From: Dehalobacterium formicoaceticum
GTDB lineage: Bacteria > Bacillota > Dehalobacteriia > Dehalobacteriales > Dehalobacteriaceae
Direction of reading: 5' to 3'
Assembly (NCBI RefSeq): GCF_002224645.1
Contig: NZ_CP022121.1
Location: forward strand, 992,001-1,056,000
Length of the DNA: 64,000 bases
Shown here: positions 24,221-30,887 of the stretch, in pieces
Numbering within the stretch: position 1 is the first letter of the stretch
Layout: each line of letters starts with the position of its first letter
Made by a program: the position numbers and the translations under genes
Notes under the pieces: model-generated
Seen by the model: only the letters and a program-made list of their open reading frames with translations
Databases searched by the model: none
What the model was told of the DNA's origin: nothing

Positions 24221-24248
24221 TTATTAACCTTGTGGGATATGGTATAAT
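24221..24248 (+). promoter_or_regulatory. SigA-type promoter of uvrB
   Basis: TTATTA (24221-24226), a 16-bp spacer and a perfect TATAAT (24243-24248) precede uvrB. The block from TTAACC through the start of uvrB is repeated in degraded form before uvrA at about 27830. No GAAC-N4-GTTC LexA box is evident. Confidence 0.7.
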
Positions 24249-24285
24249 AGAAGAATAGAGTAAATTAAAAAGCGAGGTCAGAATC

Positions 24286-26268
24286 ATGAGCGATTTTAAA
24301 ATAAAATCTTCTTACCATCCCACCGGGGACCAGCCCCAGGCTATTGAGCGCTTGGTGGAGGGCATTCTGGCCGGAGAAAAGAACCAAGTGCTTTTAGGGG
24401 TTACCGGGTCGGGGAAAACCTTTACCATGGCCAATGTCATTGAAAAGGTAAAAAAACCCACCCTGGTCATAGCTCATAATAAAACCTTGGCCGCTCAATT
24501 ATGCGGGGAGTTTAAGGAGTTTTTCCCCGATAATGCGGTAGAGTACTTTGTCAGTTATTATGATTATTATCAACCGGAAGCATATATTGCCCATACAGAT
24601 ACCTATATTGAAAAAGATGCTTCCATTAATGATGAAATAGAAAAGCTGCGTCACTCGGCCACGGCATCTCTTTCCGAACGGCGGGATGTGATTATTGTGG
24701 CCAGCGTTTCCGCCATTTATGGCTTGGGGTCTCCTGAAGATTATCAACAAATGACATTGAGTTTAAGGGTGGGACAGAGCCAGGAACGGGACCGCATCGT
24801 GCGTAAACTGGTGGATATGCAATATGCCCGTAATGAAATGGATTTCCACCGGGGCACCTTCCGGGTGCGGGGAGATGTGATTGAAATCTTTCCTGTTTCA
24901 TCCAGTGAAAGGGCTCTGCGGGTGGAAATGTTCGGCGATGAAATAGAACGCATCGTGGAAATAGATACCTTGACGGGAGAAATACTAGGCCAGTTGCGCC
25001 ATGCGGCTGTCTTCCCGGCCAGTCACTATGTGACGGAAGAAGAAAAGATGAAAAAAGCCATCAGCACCATTGAATTGGAGTTGGCGGAGAGACTGAAGGT
25101 TTTGCGGGAACAGAATAAATTGCTGGAAGCCCAGCGCTTGGAGCAAAGGACCAATTTTGATCTTGAAATGATGCAGGAAATGGGATATTGTCAGGGGATC
25201 GAAAACTATTCCCGCCATTTAAGCGCACGGGCTCCCGGGGAGCCTCCTTATACTCTAATCGACTATTTCCCGGAAGATTTTTTGCTGGTCATTGATGAAT
25301 CCCATGTGACCCTGCCTCAGATCAGAGGGATGTACGAAGGGGATAAATCACGAAAAACAACTCTGGTGGAACACGGTTTTCGTTTACCGTCTGCCTTGGA
25401 TAACCGTCCTCTAATGTTTCCCGAATTTGAAAAAAAGATCAATCAGGCAGTCTTCGTATCGGCCACACCCGGATCTTATGAAATGGAACACAGTAAAAAA
25501 ATTGTGGAACAGATTATCCGCCCCACCGGTCTCCTGGACCCGGAGATTGAAGTACGGCCGGTACAGGGACAAATCGATGACCTGATTGGAGAAATCAAAA
25601 AGCGGGTCGACAAAAATCAACGGGTTTTGGTAACCACATTAACAAAACGCATGGCGGAGGATTTAACGGACTATCTCAAAGAGCTGGATATCAAAGTGCG
25701 CTATTTACATTCCGATGTAAAAACCTTGGAACGCATGGAAATTATCCGGGAATTGCGTCTGGGTGTCTTTGATGTGTTGGTGGGGATTAATCTGCTGCGA
25801 GAAGGTTTGGACTTGCCGGAAGTTTCCCTGGTGGCAATCCTGGATGCGGATAAAGAAGGATTTTTACGATCGGAGCGTTCTTTGATTCAGACCATTGGGC
25901 GGGCAGCCCGCAATGCGGAAGGCCGGGTCATTATGTATGGGGATCGGATCACAGATTCCATGGAAAAAGCAATTTCAGAAACCAATCGCAGGCGGTTACT
26001 ACAGATCAATTATAATCAGGTGCATCATATTATCCCTCAAACAGTACAAAAGGCGGTGCACGATACCTTGGGCATTACCATGGCAGCAGAGCCTGAGGCA
26101 CAATATCAGGTGGATGGAAAATTGAAAAAGCTGTCTAAGAAGGAAGGGGAAAAGATGATCCGCACCTTAGAAAAAGAAATGCGGGAAGCGGCGCGTCATT
26201 TGGAGTTCGAACGTGCTGCTGAATTAAGAGATATTATCATCGAGGTACGGGCTCAGATCAAAAACTAA
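24286..26268 (+). CDS. uvrB: Excinuclease ABC subunit B
   Basis: UvrB is the damage-verifying helicase of nucleotide excision repair, loaded by UvrA and then joined by UvrC. The 660 residues include Walker [14 protein letters not shown] (about residue 39), the beta-hairpin region [20 protein letters not shown] that inserts between strands, the DESH box [11 protein letters not shown], helicase motifs [15 protein letters not shown] and [13 protein letters not shown], and a C-terminal UVR motif [13 protein letters not shown] that binds UvrC. ATG 24286 has GAGGTC a few bases upstream. The normal partner uvrA lies 1.75 kb downstream, separated by a REP/RAYT insertion. Confidence 0.98.
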
Positions 26269-26297
26269 GGGGACAAGGTACCTGTCCCCTTGTCCCC
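26269..26297. repeat. REP-like hairpin (left copy) after uvrB
   Basis: GGGGACAAGG (26269-26278) and CCTTGTCCCC (26288-26297) are perfect arms around TACCTGTCC, starting immediately after the uvrB stop. The core is repeated at 27776-27806, so two copies bracket the uvrB-uvrA insertion. It could also terminate uvrB transcripts. Confidence 0.75.
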
Positions 26298-26301
26298 CCC
26301 C

Positions 26302-26736
26302 AAGCTGTACCTACTTAAAGAATTTCAAAGATTAAAAGAGGAAGAACAAAAACAGCTGGGATGGAATGCTAAAAGAGAATTAGCTAAAATTAATTATCAT
26401 ATACATACTGATGCCATTAAACAAAATCTTATTCCTGAGGAACTAACGAAACAACAGATATCGCTTGTATATGCTAATGAAGCGGATGTATTAAATGTAG
26501 CATTATTTGGGAAAACAGCAAAGCAATGGAGGGAAGCAAATCCAGATAAAAAGGGAAATATTAGAGATTACGCTTCTATTAATGAACTTATATGTTTATC
26601 CAATATGGAGAATATTAATGCCGTTTTAATTAATGATGGAATTAGTCAAAGTGACCGATTGGTAAGATTAAATAAAATAGCCATCCAGCAAATGATGATA
26701 TTGGAAGATCAAACTCCCGGGAAGTTAATTAGATAA
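26302..26736 (+). pseudogene. KilA-N family protein, C-terminal remnant
   Basis: The frame encodes about 145 residues resembling the C-terminal part of KilA-N domain phage-type proteins: NYHIHTDAIKQNLIPEELTK, then LVYANEADVLNVALFGKTAK, QWREANPDKKGNIRDYASI and RLVRLNKIAIQQMMILE. The DNA-binding KilA-N domain that should precede it is absent; homology begins right at the REP hairpin and the only start (TTG 26290) lies within the repeat. I therefore read it as a 5'-truncated relic, most likely phage- or element-derived. AT-richer than its neighbours. The assignment rests on recalled family sequence, not on a search. Confidence 0.65.
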
Positions 26737-26809: not shown

Positions 26810-26841
26810 TTTTAATTCCCCCGAATTCGGGGGAATTAAAA
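26810..26841. repeat. Perfect 32-bp palindrome
   Basis: TTTTAATTCCCCCGAATTC and its mirror complete a fully symmetric 32-base sequence, with A-rich and T-rich ends. It lies between the KilA-N relic and the RAYT gene. It could serve as a bidirectional terminator or be part of the mobile unit; in-window repeats of it were not seen. Confidence 0.6.
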
Positions 26842-26865: not shown

Positions 26866-26893
26866 CAGACCACGGGGACGGTTCGTGCGGTTT
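26866..26893. repeat. REP-like sequence upstream of the RAYT gene
   Basis: The block around ACCACGGGGACGGTTC (26870-26885) shares ACCACGGGGACGG in inverted orientation with the hairpin at 27702-27734 on the other side of the transposase gene. Paired inverted REPs flanking the gene are typical for RAYT loci. Confidence 0.6.
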
Positions 26894-26939
26894 ACAGCAA
26901 AATTCCTTGTATGATAAGATATTTTGGGGTGATTGAATA

Positions 26940-27698
26940 ATGCCAAGGACTGGAAGAATAAAGAGTAAAAGCGGTATATATCATATCGTAATGAGGGGTA
27001 TCAATAAGCAAACCATCTTTGAAGAGGAAGAAGACTCATTAATTTTTCTGGAAACGCTAAAAAAATATCAGGAAAAAAACGGCTATAAAATATATGGATA
27101 TTGCTTAATGGGAAATCATATTCACCTGCTGATTAAGGAAGAAGAAGAAGCTCTGGAAATAATAATGCGCCGCATAGGAGCAAGTTACGTGTACTGGTAT
27201 AATCTAAAATATAATCGGTACGGGCATTTATTTCAGGATAGATATAAAAGTGAAGTGGTGGAAGATGAGAGCTATTTTTTAACTGTATTAAGATATATAC
27301 ACCAAAACCCGGTAAAAGCAGGAATAGCAGCTGATGCTGCAAATTATAATTGGAGCAGTTATAATGAATACGTTGGTAAGAGGGCAATTGTAGATACAGA
27401 TTTTGCATTGAGAATATTTAGTAGTGATAGGGAAAAAGCATTAGAAAGTTTTAAGACATCTCATCAGATAAGCAGCGACGATCTTTGTTTGGATGTTAGT
27501 GAAAATAAAAGATTAACGGATAAAATAGCCGTAGAGATTATTAAACAGAAATGCCGAGTAAATCATTGCAGTGAAATCCAATCTGTAGAAAAGGATCAAC
27601 GGGATAGATATTTGAAATTTTTAAAGGAAGAAGGACTTTCTACAAGGCAAATTGCAAGATTAACGGGTATAAGTAGGGGTATAGTTTCAAAAGCATAG
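26940..27698 (+). CDS. REP-associated tyrosine transposase (RAYT, IS200-like Y1 family)
   Basis: A 252-residue single-strand transposase related to IS200 TnpA. The HUH metal site is visible as MGNHIHLLI (about residues 58-66). FQDRYKSEVVEDESYF and LRYIHQNPVKAGIA (about residues 97-125) form the conserved second half; the Tyr in LRYIHQNPV is the likely nucleophile. A C-terminal extension ends in a helix-turn-helix LSTRQIARLTGISRGIVSK, as in one RAYT subgroup. RAYT proteins cut and move REP hairpins and are usually domesticated single-copy genes. ATG 26940 follows TTTTGGGGTGATTGAATA. Inverted REP sequences flank it, and more related hairpins lie at 26269, 27776 and 61688. Confidence 0.92.
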   Translation: MPRTGRIKSKSGIYHIVMRGINKQTIFEEEEDSLIFLETLKKYQEKNGYKIYGYCLMGNHIHLLIKEEEEALEIIMRRIGASYVYWYNLKYNRYGHLFQDRYKSEVVEDESYFLTVLRYIHQNPVKAGIAADAANYNWSSYNEYVGKRAIVDTDFALRIFSSDREKALESFKTSHQISSDDLCLDVSENKRLTDKIAVEIIKQKCRVNHCSEIQSVEKDQRDRYLKFLKEEGLSTRQIARLTGISRGIVSKA

Positions 27699-27701
27699 AG
27701 C

Positions 27702-27734
27702 GACGAACCAGAAGAGCCGTCCCCGTGGTTCGTC
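27702..27734. repeat. REP hairpin downstream of the RAYT gene
   Basis: GACGAACCA (27702-27710) and TGGTTCGTC (27726-27734) pair perfectly around GAAGAGCCGTCCCCG. The loop side contains the complement of the GGGGACGG core seen upstream of the gene. Confidence 0.7.
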
Positions 27735-27775: not shown

Positions 27776-27806
27776 GTGGGACAAGGTACCTGTCCCCTTG
27801 TCCCAC
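27776..27806. repeat. REP-like hairpin (right copy) before uvrA
   Basis: GTGGGACAAGG (27776-27786) and CCTTGTCCCAC (27796-27806) pair perfectly around TACCTGTCC, the same loop as the copy after uvrB. The right arm is the first of three tandem 11-mers. Confidence 0.75.
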
Positions 27807-27828
27807 CCTTGTCCCACCCTTGTCCCAC
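27796..27828. repeat. Three tandem copies of an 11-bp repeat
   Basis: CCTTGTCCCAC occurs at 27796-27806, 27807-27817 and 27818-27828 without spacers. It is an expansion of one REP arm, and it ends exactly where the duplicated uvrB 5' region begins. It lacks spacers, so it is not a CRISPR. Confidence 0.85.
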
Positions 27829-27829
27829 C

Positions 27830-27974
27830 TTAACCTTGTGGGATATGGTATAATAAAAGTATAGAGTATGTTGTAAAGTGGGGTCAGAATCATGAGTGAC
27901 TTTAGGGGATTAACCTCAGGCTCTTGAGCGTTGGGTGAAGGGGATTCTGGCCGGAGAAAAGAATCAAGTGCTTA
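27830..27974 (+). pseudogene. Degraded duplicate of the uvrB promoter and 5' coding region
   Basis: Bases 27830-27974 resemble 24224-24394. Shared blocks are TTAACCTTGTGGGATATGG plus TATAAT, then GGTCAGAATCATGAG, then ATTCTGGCCGGAGAAAAGAA and CAAGTGCTT. About 30 coding bases are missing inside and several bases differ. The copied -10 TATAAT is at 27849-27854, while the TTATTA -35 of the original is replaced by the REP-derived sequence. The copied ATG (27892) now opens an 11-codon frame ending in TGA at 27925. The copy lies just before uvrA and may serve as its promoter. No other gene is seen in 27699-28022. Confidence 0.85.
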
Positions 27975-28022
27975 GATTGCTTATCATAGATCGTTGATCA
28001 GATCAAAATAGAAGGAGTATTT

Positions 28023-30887
<2,865 letters not shown>

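Follow-up and report, generated by a model that had tools for sequence, protein, structure and literature searches.

The stretch of Dehalobacterium formicoaceticum DNA analysed here (the window) is 64,000 nucleotides long and corresponds to bases 992001–1056000 of a single contig of 3,766,545 bases, over which the genome-wide searches for this locus were carried out. It carries uvrB and uvrA on the plus strand. uvrA is a DNA-repair gene that is normally co-transcribed with uvrB, and at this locus the two genes lie apart, with the following features in and around the interval (window coordinates):

24224–24285, plus strand: promoter and leader of uvrB, assigned from the sequence; the promoter core is also found in relatives.
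24286–26268, plus strand: uvrB, intact, 660 amino acids.
26269–26297, plus strand: REP-like hairpin of the GGGACAAGGTACCTGTCCCCTTGTCCC type, directly 3′ of the uvrB stop codon (−18.5 kcal/mol, z −3.5).
26290–26736, plus strand: phage-type regulator gene reduced to its C-terminal half (N-terminus missing), matched by the phrog_2657 profile.
26810–26841: palindrome TTTTAATTCCCCCGAATTCGGGGGAATTAAAA with a perfect 14-bp stem, between the regulator fragment and the RAYT unit, terminator-like on the minus strand.
26867–27730, plus strand: self-contained RAYT unit with inverted arms; the gene is at 26940–27698.
27776–27829, plus strand: second REP-like hairpin (27776–27806) with an 11-nt tandem arm (27795–27829), abutting the uvrB copy.
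27830–27855, plus strand: copied promoter core, 26 bases with 0 mismatches to uvrB, with the extended −10 TGGTATAAT at 27846–27854.
27856–27973, plus strand: remainder of the 5′ stub of a probable second uvrB, from the alignment (leader, old start codon at 27892, 26-nt deletion, through codon 36).
27981–28008, plus strand: probable remnant of the 3′ end of the second uvrB, aligning with 26234–26263; the assignment is position-dependent.
28010–28017, plus strand: uvrA ribosome-binding site AGAAGGAG, assigned from the sequence.
28023–30887, plus strand: uvrA, 954 amino acids.

The segment preceding uvrA is a direct repeat of the beginning of the uvrB region. Alignment within the window pairs 27830–27973 with 24224–24393, with 124 of the 144 aligned bases identical (14% divergence), in two blocks, 27830–27904 against 24224–24298 (75 nt, 87%) and 27905–27973 against 24325–24393 (69 nt, 86%), that are separated by one 26-nt deletion in the copy after 27904. 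The initial annotation had described a repeat of uvrB with a single internal deletion, situated between a tandem REP arm and uvrA, and this description holds in all but its last base, which it placed at 27974; the similarity stops at 27973. Local alignment of the uvrB-upstream and uvrA-upstream regions gave z = 26 against shuffles, which rules out chance similarity, and a genome-wide search with the copy returned matches only at its own site and at the uvrB region (E about 1e-27), which rules out a dispersed repeat or MITE. A common LexA operator is also ruled out as the source of the similarity in this genome, because no match to GAAC-N4-GTTY, with up to one mismatch allowed, was found near the uvrB or the uvrA promoter.

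As the initial annotation had proposed, a REP/RAYT segment separates uvrB from uvrA, with the RAYT unit and the REP hairpins lying in the gap. The RAYT gene scores 56.4 bits with Pfam Y1_Tnp (cutoff 23), and the palindromic repeats that flank it are dispersed elsewhere in the genome too, as are paralogues of the unit that are 94–96% identical to it (4–6% divergent). It resembles known REP/RAYT systems (PMC2817692, PMC3116915) in combining a RAYT-group Y1 transposase gene with palindromic flanks, both multi-copy in the genome, and differs from them in that its NF047646 score of 79.1 bits falls just below the cutoff of 80 and in that a second repeat type flanks the entire insert. The regulator piece covers positions 100–232 of the 243 in phrog_2657 (E 5e-42) and is probably a dead fragment; a relative in genome G053 has a 287-aa open frame. 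The start of the fragment is a TTG inside REP sequence, its N-terminus being absent. We found no plus-strand terminator between uvrB and uvrA that would force uvrA to need its own promoter, the terminator-like hairpins at 26267–26291 and 26810–26841 lying on the minus strand; read-through into uvrA from uvrB or from the RAYT gene is possible.

Because the copy has diverged from uvrB by 14% and the RAYT unit from its paralogues by 4–6%, the comparison of sequences suggests that the uvrB duplication predates the RAYT insertion, if the rates of change are alike; the order would be undecided if this RAYT were the source of the other RAYT copies. Of the two timings that had been put forward for the duplication, during or before the REP/RAYT insertion, it is the earlier one that is favoured.

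The core shared by the two copies is the extended −10 element TATGGTATAAT, with TGGTATAAT at 24240–24248 (uvrB) and 27846–27854 (copy). In both, TATGG precedes TATAAT, an arrangement that constitutes the extended −10 of Gram-positive promoters, and TG(N)TATAAT is also found upstream of uvrB in five other genomes (G001, G002, G003, G027 and G032). The first 26 bases of the copy contain no mismatches whereas the other 118 contain 20 (p 0.013), although a mismatch-free stretch of that length at some place in the copy would not be unusual on its own (p 0.27). At 16–18 bases upstream of TATAAT, uvrB offers TTATTA at best, and in the copy this place is taken by ACCTTA or CACCTT, in part REP sequence; reading the sequences at this spacing, we found a near-consensus −35 (TTGACA) in neither. 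The initial annotation had held that the −10 was retained, as indeed it is within the mismatch-free 26 bases, and that the −35 now came from REP sequence, for which we find no support. Since both copies have an extended −10, and the core is present in relatives as well, a REP-derived −35 need not be assumed. Judged by its sequence, the copied promoter is better read as an extended −10 promoter of a type able to work without a good −35, and the copy preceding uvrA, which is real, is probably functional as a promoter. Its lack of whatever −35 the uvrB promoter has counts against such a role at uvrA. A promoter scan had neither the uvrB promoter nor the copy among its listed promoters, and folding of the uvrA leader revealed no structure (z 0.26).

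Comparison of uvrB–uvrA junctions in related genomes, a check that the initial annotation had proposed, showed that the two genes are adjacent in three relatives of the same family, as it had presumed, with spacers (matched ends) of 45, 111 and 147 bases, none of which contains a copy of the uvrB promoter. The spacer of genome G001 (L194) opens with a different palindromic repeat, GTGTCAGGGGACGGTTCTCTGACAC; the family spacer has therefore acquired repeats more than once. In the same genome the open frame of uvrB seems to continue into the spacer repeat, which may supply the C-terminus and the stop codon of UvrB.

What was copied to uvrA extends beyond a promoter. The copy begins with TTAACCTTGTGGGATATGGTATAAT and spans promoter, leader, start codon and coding sequence through codon 36, its original frame broken by the 26-base deletion and by in-frame stops (TAA) so that the residual frame reads MSDFRGLTSGS and then stops (27892–27927). 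Eight of 12 mismatches fall at third codon positions, a bias compatible with a period in which both uvrB genes still worked; it is suggestive only, not proof. In addition, 27981–28008 (TTATCATAGATCGTTGATCAGATCAAAA), which adjoins the ribosome-binding site of uvrA, aligns colinearly with the last codons of uvrB (26234–26263), a similarity on which the initial annotation was silent. With the final 60 bases of uvrB as target, the score of this match (26) has a chance probability of 0.0006 with random 36-mers of the window, 0.003 with GC-matched sequence and 0.008 with a Markov model; because scores of 27–28 occur at two unrelated sites of the 64-kb window, the weight of the match lies in its position only. 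Taking the tail at 27975–28010 as a leftover of an ancestral spacer like that in G003 or in G001 yielded lower scores, 18 and 16, respectively. We infer that the copy is probably what remains of an entire second uvrB, rather than a promoter copied alone; a second complete uvrB adjoining uvrA, its middle since lost, would be the most economical reading, and the shortness of the 3′ stub counts against it. The earlier claim that the uvrB promoter was duplicated to uvrA therefore stands insofar as a copy of the promoter core precedes uvrA, but the piece as a whole, given the 3′-end match, looks like the stub of an entire gene.

According to the explanation we prefer, uvrB and its promoter would have been duplicated in tandem within an ancestral uvrB–uvrA operon, giving the order P-uvrB / P-uvrB′ / uvrA. 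The inner uvrB′ would then have undergone a large internal deletion, from around codon 37 to some ten codons before its end, and lost a further 26 nt through a separate one. What would have been left ahead of uvrA is a fusion of the promoter, the leader and codons from the two ends of the gene. The gap between the intact uvrB and the stub would later have taken in REP elements, the phage-regulator fragment and the RAYT unit, and the extended −10 promoter in the stub would probably drive uvrA, with a start expected near 27860 and a leader of about 160 nt. We assign a probability of roughly 0.6 to this joint explanation, from tandem duplication through decay and insertion to use of the stub promoter by uvrA.

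Split pairs, defined by a uvrB–uvrA gap of at least 600 bases (n = 14, the Dehalobacterium pair included), contain a copy of the uvrB promoter before uvrA in three cases: Dehalobacterium itself and G015 and G019, two sister species (uvrB 95% identical) from another family of the same class. These two are also the only exceptions among 37 other genomes with a uvrB–uvrA spacer of at least 100 bases, the remaining 35 having an upstream-region alignment z of 3.6 or less. The copy is 92 bases long and 90% identical in G015 (L208:3378–3470) and 69 bases long and 72% identical in G019 (L211); in both it consists of promoter sequence with no coding part and is unrelated to the Dehalobacterium copy. 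A genome-wide search located the G015 copy only at that genome's own uvrB and uvrA, so a dispersed repeat is ruled out there. In each of the two genomes the pair is split by a gene on the opposite strand (213 aa in G015, 168 aa in G019; no Pfam match), and because of this orientation read-through into uvrA is unlikely. The uvrA upstream regions of G015 and G019 are 82% alike over 68 aligned bases, and the two cases are for that reason not independent; a single duplication, followed in G015 by homogenisation, could account for them, as could two duplications. None of the remaining 11 split pairs has a copy, and in nine of these 11 the longest open reading frame in the gap is on the same strand and exceeds 200 aa. 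The pattern suggests selection to keep a promoter where the insert blocks read-through, with the independent events being few (two or three).

Three genera of family f3 (G009, G033 and G034; L207, L209 and L210) have the pair split by a same-strand gene of about 410–450 codons, with no promoter copy in any of them. Several other members of genus g11, the genus of G015 and G019, have uvrA moved away from uvrB, and no likeness between uvrA-upstream and uvrB-upstream sequence was found in G012, G013, G014, G018 or G025. Where the two genes lie apart in this genus, uvrB (L227, L229, L232 and L234) has a LexA-like box, GAACATTTGTTTG, and uvrA (L228, L230, L233 and L235) a different shared motif, GCGTACTTGTGTTCG.

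Three other accounts of the Dehalobacterium copy have to be weighed. A short duplication might have copied the promoter and 5′ end of uvrB only, with uvrA using that promoter and the 3′-end match arising by chance. The similarity is unambiguous in its 5′ part only, and the G015 and G019 copies are precedents for promoter sequence without a coding part; nevertheless, the 3′ match is colinear and lies where the end of uvrB should be (p 0.0006–0.008), and neither 36 codons nor the last codons would be expected to come along with a promoter, so that we regard this account as rather unlikely. It is quite improbable, in our estimate, that the stub is non-functional and decaying, with uvrA depending on a different promoter or on read-through, either from uvrB or from RAYT. 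Complete retention of the promoter core, of a type conserved in relatives, argues against it, as do the strong hairpins that stand between uvrB and uvrA and the separate promoter copies that G015 and G019 hold at the same gene pair, even though the coding part is dead (by its divergence, deletions and stop codon), the long identical run is not exceptional, and the insert has no detected plus-strand terminator.

Carriage of the uvrB 5′ piece to uvrA by a moving REP/RAYT element would fit the exact start of the homology at the end of the REP arm (27829/27830), but none of the remaining REP and RAYT copies in the genome carries uvrB sequence, the RAYT unit is bounded by arms of its own and stops at 27730, and divergence is greater for the uvrB copy than for the RAYT copies. 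We find this highly implausible; the RAYT element is a neighbour of the uvrB copy, not its cause.

The copy before uvrA is explained by known processes, namely tandem duplication, pseudogene decay and promoter capture. In promoter capture (PMC11111574), a promoterless gene is fused to an existing promoter by tandem duplication or deletion. uvrA would likewise have acquired a promoter via duplication or deletion; it differs from that case in that it belongs natively to an operon and was severed from the promoter it had there, and in that the promoter it gains comes attached to what is left of a decayed duplicate of uvrB, once its partner in the operon. As in other tandem duplicates that become pseudogenes, the second uvrB lies beside the first with its frame broken and most of the gene deleted, but unlike them it keeps its promoter end beside a downstream gene that needs it. 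In Clostridia the uvrBA operon, that of C. difficile included, is under LexA control (PMC4234289); the same two genes are adjacent in the relatives of Dehalobacterium, whereas in Dehalobacterium the pair is split and a LexA box is found at neither promoter.

We propose tentatively, as a possibility somewhat short of an even chance, that a split of the uvrB–uvrA operon creates selection for providing uvrA anew with the uvrB promoter, and that this has occurred at least two independent times in the class (through a decayed tandem uvrB in Dehalobacterium and a promoter copy behind an opposite-strand insert in G015 and G019), keeping UvrA and UvrB on the same promoter even after the shared operon is lost. 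The Dehalobacterium locus would offer a concrete route by which an operon broken by mobile DNA can keep its downstream gene active, the upstream gene having left a duplicate that shrinks to a promoter stub. The separate case in another family suggests that UvrA and UvrB are under pressure to stay with a single promoter type, and it is this recurrence at the uvrB/uvrA pair that is the interesting part of otherwise ordinary processes.
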